Virus record (IMG/VR): IMGVR_UViG_3300045923_000004
Coordinates: 1-22,232 of that record
Strand: one strand, 5' to 3'
Length of the DNA stretch: 22,232 bases
From: a virus
The first letter of the stretch is position 1. Every line of letters starts with the position of its first letter. A model generated the notes under the pieces. It saw only the letters and a list, made by a program, of their open reading frames with translations, had not been told where the DNA came from and did not search any database. Positions 6,270-18,917 of this stretch are shown piece after piece. Position numbers and translations under genes: made by a program.

Positions 6270-6472
6270 ACCATTATCATGATCAGTTTCCTTTCAGGAT
6301 TCAACTGAACCGGGATTACTATCCAAAGATATCGGAGATCTACCAGCAACTTCGTACGTTCGGTGAAATAGGCGGCGAGTGGACGGCATATGATATGTTC
6401 GGGTATCAGCATATCTACTTCAAGAAGGAAGAAGATTTGAAGAACTTCCAGGAATGGGTCAAGACGCTGTGA
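6266..6472 (+). CDS. Small hypothetical protein, 68 aa
   Basis: A 68-residue, aromatic-rich protein (MNHYHDQFPFRIQLNRDYY, FGYQHIYF) with a helical C-terminus. No known motif. The ATG overlaps the nuclease stop and its end overlaps the SET-domain gene. Confidence 0.65.
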   Translation: MNHYHDQFPFRIQLNRDYYPKISEIYQQLRTFGEIGGEWTAYDMFGYQHIYFKKEEDLKNFQEWVKTL

Positions 6473-6894
6473 AAGAGAAGAATTGGCAGGCTTGGAAGTA
6501 TCTCATGGTCAAAGACAATGAGCACGGCCAATCTGGTTTGTATGCGATGATTGATATTCCATACAAGACAGTCATAGGCGCATTTGGTGGCAAGATAGAA
6601 TGCGTCAGTCCTATACCTGAAAGGATCACCAACTCTATCATTCAGATTGCGATCAACCGAGAGCAGGACATACTTTTGATCCTGACCGGAGAGAAAGATT
6701 TTCGGTGGGAGGGTATCAGCTATATGAACCACTCCTGTGAACCTAACGCCAACATGGTTGCTCAAACTATAATCGTTGCCAATCGAGACATCAAACGTGG
6801 CGAAGAGATTACGGTAGACTACAACAGTTGGAACTTCATTGGTGAGGGTGTGCCTTGCTGGTGCCCAAAGTGTGATGGTAAGGTGACCATATGA
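6454..6894 (+). CDS. SET-domain protein lysine methyltransferase
   Basis: The 146-residue protein contains a near-complete SET domain with post-SET zinc site. Seen: the N-terminal SET strand GLYAMIDIPYKTVIGAFGG (28-46), the SAM-binding/catalytic YMNHSCEPN (90-98), EEITVDY (117-123, catalytic Tyr123), and post-SET C135-x-C137-x2-C140, which with C95 can bind one zinc. SET enzymes transfer methyl from S-adenosylmethionine to lysine side chains and are chiefly eukaryotic; compact versions occur in bacteria and in viruses such as chlorella viruses. The phage target is unknown; host ribosomal, nucleoid or RNA-polymerase proteins are candidates. Start is uncertain: ATG 6454, or GTG 6469 that overlaps the preceding TGA (GTGA). 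The next gene overlaps by four bases. Confidence 0.88.
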   Translation: MGQDAVKEKNWQAWKYLMVKDNEHGQSGLYAMIDIPYKTVIGAFGGKIECVSPIPERITNSIIQIAINREQDILLILTGEKDFRWEGISYMNHSCEPNANMVAQTIIVANRDIKRGEEITVDYNSWNFIGEGVPCWCPKCDGKVTI

Positions 6895-7274: not shown

Positions 7275-7350
7275 CGATGTGTAGCTCAAACTGGCTAGAG
7301 CAGGATCTCTAAAATCCAAGATCAGGGTTCGATGCCCTGCACAACGGCCA
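7275..7350 (+). tRNA. tRNA with CUA (amber-reading) anticodon
   Basis: A cloverleaf can be folded by eye. Acceptor 7275-7281/7340-7346 has 6 of 7 pairs (A7277 opposes A7344). T8-A9 is followed by D stem GCTC/GAGC (7284-7287/7298-7301) with GG in the loop. The anticodon stem is GGAT/ATCC (7303-7306/7314-7317), loop CTCTAAA (7307-7313) with U33 and anticodon CTA at 7309-7311. The variable loop has five bases, and the T arm is CAGGG-TTCGATG-CCCTG (7323-7339). The discriminator is G and CCA is encoded (7348-7350). A CUA anticodon pairs with UAG, making this a suppressor-type tRNA. Oddities: only four clean anticodon-stem pairs and one acceptor mismatch, so activity is not certain. Charging amino acid cannot be told. 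Confidence 0.78.
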
Positions 7351-8574: not shown

Positions 8575-9279
8575 ATGATGAATTTCAAAGCAGCATTCAA
8601 AGCGTGTGCCGACGCCAAGGATATTTCCAGCGTTGACATCGTACAATACGCTATCCTTCGCGCCATGAAAGCGAAGACGGCTCAGACTATTGAGGACCGT
8701 ATCAAGATAGCATCAACCTTTATCCGCCGGCACTTTCGTTCTGTGAAGAATAGAAAGATGCTCGATAATGGGGTTGATCCAGAAAGAGCGGTTAGGAGAG
8801 CGACCGAAATTACTAAGAGTGCTAAGGTCATCTGTGGCATTCTAGAAAAGAGTATGTTTACTGATGAACGTGAGCGCATCCTCTACAAAAACATCGCGGT
8901 GGCTTTATATGAGCAGTACAAGATCCCTGCGGATCTTTACACCAGACATTACGTCTACATCTTCGTGCGTCAAGATATGACGCCGGAGTATCAGCTAGTC
9001 CAGGCTAGCCATGCGGCGGCTCGCATGGGACAACGTCTAGGATCCAATGGCATTGACCAGGGCAAGTTTGATGAGTTGTATTTCAGTGTGATTGGTGTCC
9101 CTGATCTTCATGGTCTTGCCAAAGCATTGGAAGACTTCAAGCAGCGCGGTATCAAGACCTATCCGTTCATTGAGCCAGACATCGGAAACGTGATGACAGC
9201 ATTCGCTTCCGACCCGGTTTGGTCACATGATCGTAAGGGATTGCTATCTTACAAGAGATTGGTCTTCAAGAAGGACTAA
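8575..9279 (+). CDS. Peptidyl-tRNA hydrolase 2-like protein
   Basis: The 234-residue protein has an N-terminal helical part (1-120) of unknown role and a C-terminal domain resembling the PTH2 fold: YVYIFVRQDMTPEYQLVQAS (126-145), HAAARMGQ (146-153), a strand YFSVIGVPD, helix LHGLAKALEDFKQRGI, and FIEPDIGNVMTAFA. PTH2 enzymes cut peptides off tRNAs released from stalled ribosomes. The assignment rests on pattern memory, so catalytic ability is unproven. The ATG at 8575 is chosen (or 8578) because it follows GGAG by eight bases and lies downstream of the promoter; frame-open codons before it lie inside the promoter. Its stop is directly followed by the tmRNA gene. Confidence 0.65.
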   Translation: MMNFKAAFKACADAKDISSVDIVQYAILRAMKAKTAQTIEDRIKIASTFIRRHFRSVKNRKMLDNGVDPERAVRRATEITKSAKVICGILEKSMFTDERERILYKNIAVALYEQYKIPADLYTRHYVYIFVRQDMTPEYQLVQASHAAARMGQRLGSNGIDQGKFDELYFSVIGVPDLHGLAKALEDFKQRGIKTYPFIEPDIGNVMTAFASDPVWSHDRKGLLSYKRLVFKKD

Positions 9280-9283
9280 ATAG

Positions 9284-9567
9284 GTTTGAATGATTGTAAA
9301 CGCCTGACTAAAGGCATGTTGGACTGGGGTTCGATTCCCCACGGTTCCACCAAATTTCAGGACCATGCTAGAGGGTCCATTATGGGGCCGATCGGTTTCG
9401 ACAGCGTGAGTAATACACCAAGTGCAATCCGGTATGCTACGACCGTAACAGTGCAAAACCATAAATGCATCTAACGATGACATCTATGACACCGTAGAGT
9501 TGGCTCTAGCAGCCTAACCCTCGGGTCTGAGTTTCGGCCGCTTCCTTGTAAACAGAATAAGCGGCCA
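9284..9567 (+). ncRNA. ssrA: Circularly permuted two-piece tmRNA
   Basis: The tmRNA 3' (acceptor) piece comes first, ending in CCA at 9350-9352, and the 5' (coding) piece starts at 9384. Acceptor stem GGGGCCG (9384-9390) pairs with CGGTTCC (9342-9348) in all seven positions, including G3-U70, the alanyl-tRNA synthetase identity pair, with discriminator A9349. The T arm is TGGGG-TTCGATT-CCCCA (9325-9341). P2 pairs CAGCGTG (9402-9408) with CATGTTG (9315-9321), leaving the GAC linker as in E. coli. GACTAAAGGCATG and CCAAGTGCA match conserved tmRNA segments. A 31-base spacer (9353-9383) with a GGACC/GGTCC hairpin would be removed. The tag frame is at 9467-9517, followed by a GGCCGCTT/AAGCGGCC hairpin (9536-9566). 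Ends are approximate. It would rescue stalled ribosomes by trans-translation. Confidence 0.92.
9467..9517 (+). CDS. tmRNA proteolysis-tag reading frame
   Basis: The internal frame resumes at GCA (9467) and reads ASNDDIYDTVELALAA before TAA (9515-9517). The AND-like start and LAA end match known tags; the C-terminal LAA is what ClpX recognises. The resume codon is inferred from the conserved context upstream and from the frame being open to an LAA-stop. Confidence 0.85.
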   Translation, partial: ASNDDIYDTVELALAA

Positions 9568-9590
9568 CTCTTTAACTTAATCAGGCCAGT

Positions 9591-9619
9591 TTTACTCTTA
9601 CAGTTTCCAGGCGTATAAT
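9591..9619 (+). promoter_or_regulatory. Phage early-type promoter, ACTCTTA-N13-TATAAT (copy 4)
   Basis: TTTACT (9591-9596) plus CTTA, and TATAAT at 9614-9619, repeat the same geometry. The predicted start near 9626 gives a 30-base leader with AAGGAAAT before the ATG at 9656, so this copy drives a conventional leadered mRNA. Confidence 0.75.
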
Positions 9620-10644: not shown

Positions 10645-10907
10645 AATCGATCATCCACGTCAATGCCCAGCTGATCAAGCGCAATATTAAGAACAAGACC
10701 ACTCATCCGGTGGTCCGCGTTCAGCAGGGTTCCAAACAACGTTACTGCTCGGAAGCCATCATAGATGGTCCTAGCAGGATCGTATACAGTCCAGAGCGAC
10801 CGCTAAGTTGTGGCGCCAGGCTTTGGATTGAGACAGAGGCAGACGTCACTCTCGTTGACGAGACAACCTACGCAAAGATGCGGGAGATCATGAATGATAA
10901 GAATTGA
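10641..10907 (+). CDS. Hypothetical protein, 88 aa
   Basis: An 88-residue basic, beta-rich protein (IIHVNAQLIKRNIKN, VVRVQQGSKQRYCSEA, IDGPSRIVYSPERPL). The composition is that of a small beta-barrel or RNA-binding protein, but no motif is decisive. It overlaps the preceding gene by four bases and GMP reductase by 14 bases. Confidence 0.65.
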   Translation: MKSIIHVNAQLIKRNIKNKTTHPVVRVQQGSKQRYCSEAIIDGPSRIVYSPERPLSCGARLWIETEADVTLVDETTYAKMREIMNDKN

Positions 10908-12030
10908 TCCGGCTCCTAAGCTCGATTATTCCCAGGTGATGTTGGTTCCCCGTTATAGCCAAGATGGGCCCTCATCCCGCAATAGTGTATACCTAAAAAA
11001 CAAGGATTACATCATCCCTGTAATCGCCGCCAACATGGATGGTGTCGGTACATTTGAGATGGCCCGCGAACTTTGTCGCTGGGACTTGATGACGGCACTC
11101 CAGAAGCACTACACGTTAGAAGAACTGTTAGAGTTCTATCTTCATACTCTTGAAGAAGGCTATACCAAGAACGTGGTCTATTCCATGGGGATCAATCAAC
11201 CTGATTTGATCAAATGGAAAAACTTCTATGAAGAGTTAACGGCTCGCGGTCACGTTATTCCTACGGTCTGTGTTGATGTGGCTAATGGCTATACAGAAGC
11301 AACGGCGGATGCCATACGCTGGATCAAGTCTTCATTCAACACAACCATCATGGCTGGTAATGTGGTCACCAGAGAGGGAGTCTTCCGTCTCGCCGAGGCC
11401 GGTGCCAACATAATCAAGATTGGTGTGGGTCCGGGCTCTGTTTGTACGACCCGTAAGCTGACAGGTACAGGTTATCCTCAATTTAGCGCAGTACTGGAAT
11501 GCGTCCAGGCAGCCAAGGCATGGGTAGAGAAGTTCCCATTCCCTATTACACATGGACCTCGTGTGATGCAACCTCCCAAGATTGTAGCAGACGGTGGTAT
11601 TACATGTCCTGGTGATGTGGCCAAAGCCTTTGCGGCCGGTGCCGATTACGTCATGATCGGCGGTATGTTCGCTGGTCATGATGAGGGTGGTGGCACGCCA
11701 TGTGATGCCCTAGGCAATGAGAAATACATTCAAGGTGCTACCGGTACGATTTTCAACTATGCGCCAATGTCTCATCGTAAGTTTTATGGTATGGCCAGCA
11801 AGTGTGCTCAAGATAAACACAATGGCGGTGTGGCTGAGTATCGAGCCAGTGAAGGTAAAGAGGTCGTGGTGCCCTATAGGGGCAAGGTCTCCAACACTGT
11901 AAAGGAATTGCTGGGCGGTCTACGGAGCGCCTGTGCCTATCAGGGATGCCAGCATCTAGAGGACATAAGTAGTGATGTCCAATTCATCCAGGTAGCCAAC
12001 CAGACAAATAATATCTTTGGGGCATCATAA
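10894..12030 (+). CDS. guaC: GMP reductase (IMPDH/GMPR family)
   Basis: The 378-residue TIM-barrel enzyme reduces GMP with NADPH to IMP and ammonia. GMPR-type features are [10 protein letters not shown] near the N-terminus, the catalytic loop [20 protein letters not shown] (177-196) with Cys184 (E. coli GuaC Cys186), [26 protein letters not shown] and [18 protein letters not shown] followed by [10 protein letters not shown]. The loop reads [10 protein letters not shown] as in GMPR rather than the IMPDH form, and there is no CBS insert. It fits the E. coli enzyme length (347) with short extensions. It would shift purines from guanine to adenine nucleotides during infection. The start overlaps the upstream stop region; the stop overlaps the next ATG. 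Confidence 0.92.
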
Positions 12031-15170: not shown

Positions 15171-15197
15171 GGGACTCGAAAGAGTCCCTTTTCTTTT
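15171..15197 (+). terminator. Rho-independent terminator after gp32 gene
   Basis: GGGACTC (15171-15177), a GAAA tetraloop and GAGTCCC (15182-15188) are followed by TTTTCTTTT (15189-15197). It closes the + strand core genes where the converging minus-strand cluster ends (stop at 15198-15196). The opposite side lacks a T-run, so it works in one direction mainly. Confidence 0.93.
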
Positions 15198-17019
15198 ACA
15201 TTGAATAAACGCCAGCGAAGCTGACGGGATGATCGAACAATTGAGCAGTTGGACCGGCAAATGATGATTCATCATTGCGTGTCTTGATCACGACGTCGCC
15301 GCTAGAGTCTTGATTGCCTGCTACAATCGTCTTATTGATGACTGGAGCAACAACCGTCATCTCTGGTAGGGACTCAGTTGCTTCTGCTCTTTCTGGAACA
15401 AGACTGCTGGCCGTTGCCGCAGACTTACCATCATGGGCTGCATAATAGGCCACACGAGCAGCATCACGAGCAGCACCAGTCAGTGCTGTACCGGCTGCGG
15501 CAGGTTCTGCTGTAGCAACCTTAGAGATAGCAGCCTTGGTGTATTGCTCAGGGTGAGCCTTCATGCGCGCCTTGGCTTCCATTGTCTCATGATCACGACC
15601 CATCAGAGGGTTAGCAGCAATCTGAGAGAAACCGATGACGTCTTTCTGAGCTTGTGTAAGATCCTTGGCATCTACTTCCTTGCCACCGATCAGATACTTG
15701 CCGTTGGTGAAACCTTTGCCGTCGCGCTCTACCTTGATGCCATACTGCTCCAGGTACTTGTCAACAGCACTCTTAGCCTCCAGAGCATCCTTACCAGAGG
15801 CCATTCGATATGTGCCATAGGCTACTACACCCAGAGCTCCTGTCTCTACAGCGGCAGTTCCGGCAGCGATAATACCCTCGGCTCCTTCGAGACCTCCGGT
15901 CAAGAGCTTCCACAGCTGCTTGCCACCCATCTTAATAGCAGAGCCGATCTTACCAATCACCTTGAGTAACTGCTCACCAACCCACTTGGCCGTTGAAGCG
16001 AAGGCACCAAGGAGCTTCTTACCTAGCCATGCTAGAGCATCAGAAAGCAGACCTGATAGAATCTGATTCAGATTCTTGTTCATCAGTCCTTTCATAATCT
16101 TGTCGAGCTTGTCTTCGATCTCTTTATCTCTTTCCTTCTGTTCCTTCTCTACCTTGATCTGATGCTGCACCATCTTCATGGTTGCGGCTTCTTTTACGTC
16201 ATCGTTCTTAACTTCAGTATGAACCGGTTGGATCTGGGCAGAGGAAACAGGGATAGCAGGAGCCGGCACGACAGCTTCAGGACGAGCGGCTTCTACAGCA
16301 GCAGGACGAGCAGCTTCTACAGCAGCAGGAACCTCGGCAGGAGTCAGCTTGGTAGCCTTACCATTCGCGATGTTGTCCTTTGCTTTGAGAGCCATCCTTA
16401 CAATCTCTGAAACGTCATCGACGTTTGCAGGGACATGTTGAATCATCGCATGGGCTTCGGCTTTCTTGAAACCAAGACCCTGAAGAGCGGTTACAGCATC
16501 ATTGACAGCTTCAGTATTACGAGACATGTGCCCATTGACGACGCGCTGCGCAGACATTACCTGGGCTTGTGCGGTTGCCTGATGAAAGGAAGCAGGAGCC
16601 GGTTGACGCAACCTCTCCGCTTTATACTGTCTTACTTCAGTGTAGAGATAGTCAACCTTCTTTACCAGGTCGGCTATCTGCTTGGAGATTTGTGAGGAAG
16701 GATCTGCGGCGGCAAGAGTATTGTTATGCTGAGCAAGGATCTGGGCAGAGCGCTCCATTTCATTCTTGTTAGCCATAGAGGCGGAGATGGATCCACCAAT
16801 ACCCTTACCCAATACACGAGTCAATAGACCGTGACGGAAGGCGCCACCATTGTTAGACATAGTGGCTTGTGCATTCTTGACTTCTTTGGCACGAGCCTGA
16901 GCATCCTCAAATTTCATCTGAGGATTGGCAGCCTTTAGTTGTAGAGCAATCTCATTGATGGATGCACCGGTGCCACCCTTCACTGATACTCTTCGTCTTG
17001 GTCTCTTTCTATCTGCCAT
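15196..17019 (-). CDS. Probable tail tape-measure protein (gp29 position)
   Basis: The 607-residue protein is near the length of T4 gp29 (590). It has a basic N-terminus (MADRKRPRRRVSVKGG), helical and coiled-coil parts (85-135, 275-315), a Pro/Ala linker (228-258), a central amphipathic/hydrophobic block (318-404, e.g. LLSDALAWLGKKLLGAFA), and a C-terminal region with Ala-rich helices. Residues about 173-213 (ALQGLGFKKAEAHAMI, then DVSEIVRMALK) resemble the C-terminal helical domain of RuvA or a UBA fold. The gene directly follows the frameshifted tail chaperone frames (TAATG overlap), the usual site of the tape-measure gene. At about 0.15 nm per residue it would fit a tail near 90 nm. Other virion roles are possible. 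Confidence 0.6.
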   Translation of the reverse strand: MADRKRPRRRVSVKGGTGASINEIALQLKAANPQMKFEDAQARAKEVKNAQATMSNNGGAFRHGLLTRVLGKGIGGSISASMANKNEMERSAQILAQHNNTLAAADPSSQISKQIADLVKKVDYLYTEVRQYKAERLRQPAPASFHQATAQAQVMSAQRVVNGHMSRNTEAVNDAVTALQGLGFKKAEAHAMIQHVPANVDDVSEIVRMALKAKDNIANGKATKLTPAEVPAAVEAARPAAVEAARPEAVVPAPAIPVSSAQIQPVHTEVKNDDVKEAATMKMVQHQIKVEKEQKERDKEIEDKLDKIMKGLMNKNLNQILSGLLSDALAWLGKKLLGAFASTAKWVGEQLLKVIGKIGSAIKMGGKQLWKLLTGGLEGAEGIIAAGTAAVETGALGVVAYGTYRMASGKDALEAKSAVDKYLEQYGIKVERDGKGFTNGKYLIGGKEVDAKDLTQAQKDVIGFSQIAANPLMGRDHETMEAKARMKAHPEQYTKAAISKVATAEPAAAGTALTGAARDAARVAYYAAHDGKSAATASSLVPERAEATESLPEMTVVAPVINKTIVAGNQDSSGDVVIKTRNDESSFAGPTAQLFDHPVSFAGVYSM

Positions 17020-17237
17020 TAGCCTCTGCCTGTCTTCTTAGCCGCTCTTCTAGCCGCGTTCTCGAGCTTGATCTTCTCATTCTCAGCCGCTACCGTGCTC
17101 GTTATCATAGCAACGTAAGCGTCCCGTTCCCAGGGCATCATATCATCAAATCTAGTAAAGTCAATTTTTTGATGATAAAGCAAACTGAAGTTCAATTTGA
17201 ATTGAGCTTCCAAAGTATCATGACAAAAGCCTACACG
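17019..17237 (-). CDS. -1 frame extension of the gp26-like tail assembly protein
   Basis: This frame is open from the slippery site to TAA at 17021-17019 and adds 72 residues to frame-0 residue 266, giving a 338-residue fusion. It contains FDDMMPWERDAYVAMI followed by a charged helix (ENEKIKLENAARRAAKK), the pattern seen in frameshift extensions of tail chaperones. There is no ATG-type start with a Shine-Dalgarno at its head; only a TTG at 17213 could start it alone, so translation by frameshift is favoured. Its stop overlaps the tape-measure ATG. Confidence 0.7.
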   Translation of the reverse strand, partial: RVGFCHDTLEAQFKLNFSLLYHQKIDFTRFDDMMPWERDAYVAMITSTVAAENEKIKLENAARRAAKKTGRG

Positions 17238-18034
17238 AAAAAATCTTGGATTCCCTCCAAGACGATTTTGTGATCATAGCCGCACTTGGCGCACTTGATT
17301 CCTGTTTCCAATCTCGTCTGGGGCGCGTTCTTAATAAACTCGCGAATCTTTTCGTATTTATCACCAGGTAGTGCAAGGAGGAATTCTTTCAACTCCTGCT
17401 CTGTACAATCGCTGGCTGGATAGGCACTATCCTTATCATAGATCACATCCAAACAGTTAGATGCGACCACCAACTCTACATCGTTCTCAGGGACACCCTG
17501 GAGCTTACGGAATAGGTCGAAGGTTGGAAACTTCATCCTGACACCGATATCATCAGTAAACTTGATCTGAAGCTGGGTGTCTTTATTGACAACAGGGATG
17601 TTCAGGAAGTCAACCGGTACGTCTAGCACCATACCACAGTCTACCATTTCAGGTGGAGCACTAGGATCTGGTGGAGGAGCATCAACCAGTGTCATTACAC
17701 CATTGGACATAACCTTTACAGGCTTTGGCTTCTTGACGACTTTGTTCTTACATTGAAAATGAGTCGTTCCTCTTTCACCGATACTTCGAGCACGGAGAGC
17801 CAAGAAGATCATCTCCAGGTCGATCATCGCCATCTGGTCTACGTTGAACTCACCAATGACGCAGTTGGAAATAATCTGCTTCAGCGATTCGGTTGTAGTA
17901 CCAATATCACCAGCACTAACGGCCATGAGCATTAGCTTCTCTTCACGGACTGTGAATGGGCGAATCTTGATGGGATCTTTCTGGGAAAGTAGTTGGACAT
18001 CATATATTGGATATGCTATTTGTGGTAGCTTCAT
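17231..18034 (-). CDS. 26: Baseplate/tail assembly protein, T4 gp26-like
   Basis: The 267-residue protein resembles the T4_baseplate family (T4 gp26, 208): MKLPQIAYPIYDVQLLSQKD at the N-terminus, IKIRPFTVREEKLMLMA, IGEFNVDQMAMIDLEMIFLALRARSIGE, then CGMVLDVPVDF and a central Cys-rich part. Near the C-terminus CAKCGYDHKIV suggests a small zinc or beta unit. In T4 the protein is needed for baseplate hub assembly. It ends in TAG, two codons after a -1 slippery site, so part of the product is probably extended by 72 residues. Read-through of the TAG would instead give 12 residues. The upstream sequence GGTGA precedes the ATG. Confidence 0.82.
   Translation of the reverse strand: MKLPQIAYPIYDVQLLSQKDPIKIRPFTVREEKLMLMAVSAGDIGTTTESLKQIISNCVIGEFNVDQMAMIDLEMIFLALRARSIGERGTTHFQCKNKVVKKPKPVKVMSNGVMTLVDAPPPDPSAPPEMVDCGMVLDVPVDFLNIPVVNKDTQLQIKFTDDIGVRMKFPTFDLFRKLQGVPENDVELVVASNCLDVIYDKDSAYPASDCTEQELKEFLLALPGDKYEKIREFIKNAPQTRLETGIKCAKCGYDHKIVLEGIQDFFV
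17237..17258 (-). promoter_or_regulatory. Programmed -1 frameshift signal
   Basis: On the minus strand, GAT TTT TTC GTG TAG contains the slippery heptamer T-TTT-TTC (17243-17237), two codons before the frame-0 stop. GGAGGG (17258-17253) lies nine bases upstream of it, the placement of the Shine-Dalgarno stimulator in dnaX. A hairpin GAAG-TCAAT/ATTGA-CTTC (17210-17187) lies 26 bases downstream, rather far to act as a stimulator. Confidence 0.78.
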
Positions 18035-18050
18035 TATAAATCACCTTGAA

Positions 18051-18917
18051 TTAAATAGATTGAATCAACTTGTTGACCTGTTGGCTGACGGCAGCACCTG
18101 CAGTACGCAGGTCAGTTTGTACAGCGGTTGTGATACCAGCCGTAGATAGGACACCTGAAGGGAACGGCAATTGGAATGGTTGACCGAACTGTGTTGCAGA
18201 ATTTGTGACGGTCGTATCAGATATCCACTTGCGGAATTGGAAGCCCAATTGTAGACGATGAATAGAATCATTGTCCCATGACTGGCTTAACGGCGCGCAA
18301 GATATAGGACATGCGTCAATAAGTTTGACAGCATAGGCAGGATTACCTTCGTTGTCGTATTGGAAGCACGTGATATCTGCTTCCCAGTTACGCTGACCAT
18401 CAGATGTCTCTGCGTAATTTACCAGACCTGTCTGGGCAGGAACCATGTAGTCCATCCACGCATCAAAGAATCTCTTTTCCCACATGTCGCCGGTTACGAC
18501 AACTGTGAAAGATGCTTGCCCATATTGGTTGTGGTGAGGAATACGTTCAATGAAAGAATACTTGCGATACTCAATCATGTTGATATCGCGCCCAGGAAGC
18601 TCGGAGACTTCACACTGGAGACTAAGATCCTGCATACTCACGCCTGGATCTATCGTACCGGATGAGCGCAGACCACTAGGCACAGAGAAACGCACATCGA
18701 ACTTATCAGCACGAGCCGTTTCACGGTGCTTGTGTAGATTACCAACGAACTTGTTAATATTAAAGTTCTGATTCTGTAGAGGAGCCGTCAGGTTGGTGAT
18801 CCCGATTCCATTACGATTCAATTGAATGTCGAATACACCTGGCAACCCTGGGATAGCCAACTGCGCCTCAGCACTTGAGTCAAGTGGGTTAAAGGGGTTT
18901 AGGTTGAAGTCAGCCAT
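18051..18917 (-). CDS. Tail-tube family protein, T4 gp54/gp19-like
   Basis: The 288-residue protein has the gp19/gp54 tube fold pattern: INKFVGNLHKHRETARADKF, then beta strands with LQCEVSELPGRDI, FTVVVTGDMWEKRFFDAWMD, ADITCFQYDNEGNPAYAVKL, DACPISCAPLSQSWDN and HRLQLGFQFRKWI. Its length is nearer to the baseplate-tube initiator gp54 (320) than to the tube protein gp19 (163), and N- and C-terminal extensions (1-50, 250-288) are low in complexity. It would lie on the top of the baseplate under the tube. A CTAAATA box is 58 bases upstream. Overlaps the gene before it by one base. Confidence 0.8.
   Translation of the reverse strand: MADFNLNPFNPLDSSAEAQLAIPGLPGVFDIQLNRNGIGITNLTAPLQNQNFNINKFVGNLHKHRETARADKFDVRFSVPSGLRSSGTIDPGVSMQDLSLQCEVSELPGRDINMIEYRKYSFIERIPHHNQYGQASFTVVVTGDMWEKRFFDAWMDYMVPAQTGLVNYAETSDGQRNWEADITCFQYDNEGNPAYAVKLIDACPISCAPLSQSWDNDSIHRLQLGFQFRKWISDTTVTNSATQFGQPFQLPFPSGVLSTAGITTAVQTDLRTAGAAVSQQVNKLIQSI

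Follow-up and report, generated by a model that had tools for sequence, protein, structure and literature searches.

All elements of the locus considered here lie on the minus strand of a 22,232-nt stretch of viral DNA, referred to below as the window. A gp26-like open reading frame of 267 aa (17231..18034) is preceded by T4-type gp54/tube, gp2 and gp4 genes, and the tail-tube-type gene (T4 gp54/gp19 type; 18051..18917, minus strand; phrog_45 tail tube, E 1.6e-24) lies just upstream of it. We propose that the gp26-like product is the short form of a tail assembly chaperone (TAC-N). By direct reading of the sequence, the frame-0 ORF ends in ...GGA ATC CAA GAT TTT TTC GTG TAG, which places the heptamer T TTT TTC (17237..17243) in the X XXY YYZ phase of the gp26-like frame, with a single sense codon (GTG) between its A-site codon and the TAG. 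A GGAGGG element, a putative Shine-Dalgarno (SD)-like stimulator, is found 9 nt 5' of the heptamer (17253..17258). After a slip at this site the -1 frame would be read as RVGFCHDTLEAQF...KTGRG for 72 codons up to a TAA (17019..17237), and the predicted products are a protein of 267 aa in frame 0 and a fusion of 338 aa (266+72; TAC-NC). The TAA of this extension (17021-17019) and the ATG (17019) of a following 607-aa ORF (15196..17019) overlap as TAATG. The initial annotation of this DNA had given the same product lengths and the same 72-codon open frame, had placed a GGAGGG nine bases upstream of the heptamer and had stated that the -1 frame reaches the tape-measure start; re-reading of the sequence returned the same values for each of these.

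The 607-aa protein is a candidate tape measure by its position and size, and by the matches of its counterparts in relatives, several of which hit the tape-measure families phrog_9570 and phrog_1272. The window's own protein had no PHROG match and none to tape-measure families, and a search of viral contigs with it returned as its only match a contig with an identical copy. Relative to the extension stop, the downstream start in relatives was located at -14 to +55 nt, mostly at -8 to +6 nt (98 loci). Residues 171-213 of the candidate tape measure match a RuvA C-terminal-like domain (PF07499, E 1e-8).

In profile searches the 267-aa protein was assigned to PF12322 (T4_baseplate; E 5.2e-50, 170.6 bits versus a curated cut-off of 24.5) and to phrog_150 (E 4.7e-55), the family of T4 gp26. 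The -1 extension by itself, read from the slip site, matched phrog_634 (gp51, 'baseplate hub assembly catalyst') with an E of 2.6e-15, and hhalign aligned the fusion profile to that of T4-type gp51 with a probability of 99.4 and an E of 5e-21, in an alignment of 239 columns that runs through the junction. As judged by these profile comparisons, the extension is a gp51 domain, forming the C-terminal part of the long form, and the 266+72 fusion corresponds end to end with T4 gp51. The extension was modeled as three helices (pLDDT 74), and a fold search with this model gave no meaningful match.

Conservation of the heptamer and the -1 frame, and possible stimulatory elements

Relatives of the locus were gathered by gp26 similarity alone, and after removal of those at least 90% identical 130 loci were left, window included. 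These loci share ancestry, and counts over them are not independent trials; read in this way, TTTTTT[C/T/A] in slippery phase was present in 130/130 non-redundant loci, with a C after the six T in 80, a T in 47 and an A in 3 of them, and the heptamer mostly stood one codon ahead of the gp26 stop. This conservation exceeded what the encoded amino acids would give. All 130 loci had a T at the end of the codon before the T6 run, and all had TTT as the first Phe codon; usage for the same amino acids in other parts of the gene predicts 63% and 71%, respectively.

The -1 extension closed within the contig in 123 loci and was 53-80 aa long. A stop-free interior of the extension arises by construction, and the informative quantities are its minimum length, the stops in the other frames and the pattern of substitutions. 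None of the closed extensions was shorter than 53 codons, which at the stop density of frame 0 has a chance of ~0.009 per locus, and across the extension region the other two frames contained 675 and 835 stops. Substitutions at positions 1/2/3 of the -1 codons numbered 19577/10875/32535, the pattern expected of coding sequence, and the 123 closed loci shared the conserved pattern h..L.Nyy.tNF.lmQHHkYSLtElenMiPwER. On this sequence evidence, the heptamer and the open -1 frame are conserved far beyond chance. The initial annotation had proposed a programmed -1 frameshift, with the heptamer and the open -1 frame as the features to look for in related phages; both were recovered across the relatives, and the proposal is supported by them.

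We also considered elements that might stimulate a slip. The GGAGGG element of the window is predicted to form an anti-SD duplex of -9.8 kcal/mol. Anti-SD pairing averaged -6.3 kcal/mol among the relatives. Synonymous shuffles averaged -4.5 and other parts of gp26 -1.2, and the pairing beat the shuffles in 97 of the 130 loci; part of this signal is accounted for by the conserved L-E-G codons. Duplex energies gave a clearer SD-like signal than 4-mer counts, which showed a slight excess only (109 versus 102 in synonymous shuffles). Downstream of the heptamer, no conserved hairpin or pseudoknot was found (0 consensus pairs in 10 sequences), and the folding z was -0.93 in the window with a mean of -0.93 over 123 loci. 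An Rfam search of the junction had no match.

Proposed chaperone fold and two protein forms, and other explanations

The gp26-like protein gave an AlphaFold2 model with a pLDDT of 93. A search of its sequence against the PDB had no match, and Foldseek with the model, on its own, gave no significant match. Among Foldseek's 700 top chains, the best fold matches of the model were 2ob9 (HK97 gp13; Z 7.7), 3fgx (Z 7.4) and 3klu (Z 7.0), all of which are tail assembly chaperones (PMC9603447); the fourth was 5ir0, a Vibrio cholerae PICI protein of unknown function (Z 5.4), and the value that followed was 2.6. The match to the solved chaperones spans only residues 1-95 of the gp26-like protein, with Z below 8, and it backs a chaperone fold of the N-terminal domain without amounting to proof of it. 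Gene position, the two predicted forms and the modeled fold, taken together, are best explained by a tail assembly chaperone of the lambda G/GT type, and we hold this explanation to be very probable. What the two forms bind, and in what ratio they would be made, is taken by analogy from lambda. The earlier suggestion that gp26-like proteins act as tail chaperones with two forms is thus upheld by sequence and modeled structure. Counting against a chaperone, gp26 of Dickeya phage LIMEstone1 is annotated as structural and confirmed, whereas lambda virions do not contain G/GT (PMC5009743).

The extension could be expressed in other ways. It might encode a separate small gp51, made by reinitiation or from a start of its own (TTG 17213, or an ATG further on), as is suggested by the internal ATG used in the public annotations of Syn1 and Mosig and by the ATG that overlaps the gp26 stop in Vibrio V07, K474, K489 and several Ackermannviridae. 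However, the ATGs annotated in Syn1 and Mosig come after conserved residues, the conserved part of the extension has no conserved start codon ahead of it, and the -1 frame is closed by a stop at a median of 9 codons 5' of the slip, with the conserved block ~5 codons after it. In addition, T4 encodes the homologue without a break at the junction, and coding need alone does not account for the invariance of the heptamer; we regard a separate gp51 as very improbable. The initial annotation had itself named a start at TTG 17213 among the observations that would speak against frameshifting. The codons aligned with it were TTG in 46, TTA in 30, CTN in 44 and ATA in 3 loci, that is, non-TTG in 77/123, and this TTG was rejected as an independent start.

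Alternatively, RNA polymerase might slip on the T6-T7 stretch and yield mRNAs with an extra U, in line with a conserved element made of six or seven T. Against this, the usual length of six T is short by the standard of known transcriptional slippage, and relatives retain the SD-like element, whose action is on ribosomes, more strongly than synonymous shuffles do. We consider this mechanism slightly less probable still. The lowest probability falls to read-through of the TAG by the phage's CUA-anticodon tRNA (7275-7350), in which the second form would be a frame-0 product with the predicted peptide AFVMILWKLNSN. The presence of this tRNA speaks for such read-through, as does the fact that gp26 is among the 3/36 scored window genes that end in TAG; against it, the stop codon at the gp26 end varies among relatives and the -1 extension is conserved. 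Amber read-through was rejected as the source of the second form, since only 12 residues would be added before a TGA.

The reading that we favor, with high confidence, is that short and long tail assembly chaperones are made from one gp26-like gene by -1 frameshifting. The site and its conservation, the coding selection in the -1 frame, the homology of the fusion to gp51, the gene copy numbers described below and the chaperone-like modeled fold are read from sequence and model; that ribosomes shift frame here, how often they do so, what the two forms bind and what they do in tail assembly are inferred. The majority of ribosomes would terminate at the TAG and release the 267-aa short form. A minority would be paused by SD-like pairing at GGAGGG, slip by -1 on T TTT TTC with tRNA-Phe in the P and A sites, and read 72 more codons to a stop that overlaps the ATG of the candidate tape measure gene, giving a 338-aa long form with the gp51 domain at its C-terminus. 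If the analogy to lambda G/GT holds, the tape measure would be coated by many short and few long forms, and the latter may recruit tail tube subunits through their gp51 domain. The slip site would have been lost in T4 and its nearest kin, where a duplicated gene would encode the long form, gp51, in one frame.

Comparison with T4 and other phages

In T4 gp51 (249 aa), residues 1-201 matched PF12322 (E 3.9e-52) and residues 147-246 matched phrog_634, and by these matches T4 gp51 is a gp26 paralogue with the same extension, encoded in one frame. T4 gp26 corresponds to the short form of the window and T4 gp51 matches the frameshift fusion end to end; unlike in the window, gp26 and gp51 of T4 are two genes in opposite directions, and T4 gp26 has neither slip site nor extension. 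In a census of PF12322, two copies were found in T4, 44RR, Acinetobacter phage MD-2021a, Slopekvirus, Jiaodavirus and Mosigvirus, whereas a single copy was found in the two contigs nearest to the window, cyanophage Syn1, Pelagibacter phage Mosig, Nanhuvirus LPCS28, Cinqassovirus Ah1, Schizotequatrovirus V07, Moby, pf16, Ochrobactrum OC and Ackermannviridae. In a tree, phages with two genes had their gp26 copies in one group and their gp51 copies in its sister group, separate from the single-copy genes (support 97/95); the long branches of this tree call for caution. The copy-number contrast and this tree together fit a single duplication within Straboviridae that replaced the frameshift.

Six loci (L183, L184, L192, L193, L186 and L194) showed other sites. 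In those of Ackermannviridae, a -1 extension follows gp26 and ATTTTC replaces the heptamer; the extension matched phrog_634 in one of them (E 7e-4), and some of them have TAATG; Kuttervirus SP1 has no ATG at the gp26 stop. Vibrio K474/K489, from the same six loci, have CTTTTTG or CTTTTCA together with TAATG and keep the -1 extension. We consider it moderately probable that frameshifting is ancestral in T4-like phages, that the T4 line duplicated the gene and let gp26 and gp51 specialize, and that the Ackermannviridae-type loci moved to the non-canonical ATTTTC site. If this is true, one two-form chaperone is decoded in at least three ways, and the T4 line would provide a natural case of a recoding event replaced by gene duplication.

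Cyanophage gp51 was described as ~20% as long, without the first ~200 residues (PMC3037559); the truncation would be apparent only, because in these phages gp26 supplies those ~200 residues. Public gp51 annotations in two of the loci (L014:2558-2689 and L015:2558-2692) use an internal ATG start by which the first 17-19 conserved extension residues are lost, and this suggests that gp51 starts are wrong in many phage records. The 'baseplate hub' protein gp26 and the 'assembly catalyst' gp51 would become two forms of one chaperone, with a concrete function.

Tail assembly chaperones made by a -1 frameshift of the lambda G/GT type were reportedly described by Xu, Hendrix and Duda in 2004. The window locus is like lambda G/GT in that the gene lies just ahead of a candidate tape measure gene, the predicted slip is near its 3' end, the -1 extension reaches the next gene and both forms share their N-terminus. 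It differs in its heptamer (T TTT TTC versus G GGA AAG in lambda), in its larger short form (267 aa), the second half of which lies outside the chaperone-like domain, and in its contractile, T4-type tail. For T4-like phages, Vladimirov, Gautam and Davidson (Virology 566:9, 2022) are said, going by their title, to have identified tail assembly chaperones, and the title reportedly stresses a mechanism other than frameshifting. A later paper cites this work on the poly-T slippery sequences of T4-like chaperone genes (PMC12846349), and from title and citing paper these chaperones appear to be of the same kind as the window locus. In a 2016 review, frameshifted chaperones were reported in most long-tailed phages, with T4 as the exception (PMC5009743). 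Given that T4-like chaperones and poly-T sites are already in the literature, the window locus belongs to a known type of system; going by that title and citing paper, the copy-number contrast and the duplication reading may already be covered by the 2022 study or may extend it. The chaperone locus of Vandenendeviridae/Andersonviridae also has a conserved -1 frame into an extension and a T-rich site, GTTTTT (PMC12846349); it shares both traits with the window but belongs to another phage group and has another motif.

The plus strand of the window carries further genes of note. The tRNA gene with anticodon CUA (7275-7350) is called tRNA-Pyl by ARAGORN, scores 41.1 bits with the Rfam tRNA model and is a possible amber suppressor. 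A phage-borne permuted tmRNA is found at 9260-9608 (RF04321, 129 bits), with the predicted tag ASNDDIYDTVELALAA, and other phage-borne genes encode a ClpP-like protease (1107-1727), an IMPDH/GMP reductase-like enzyme (10894-12030) and a SET-domain protein (6454-6894).
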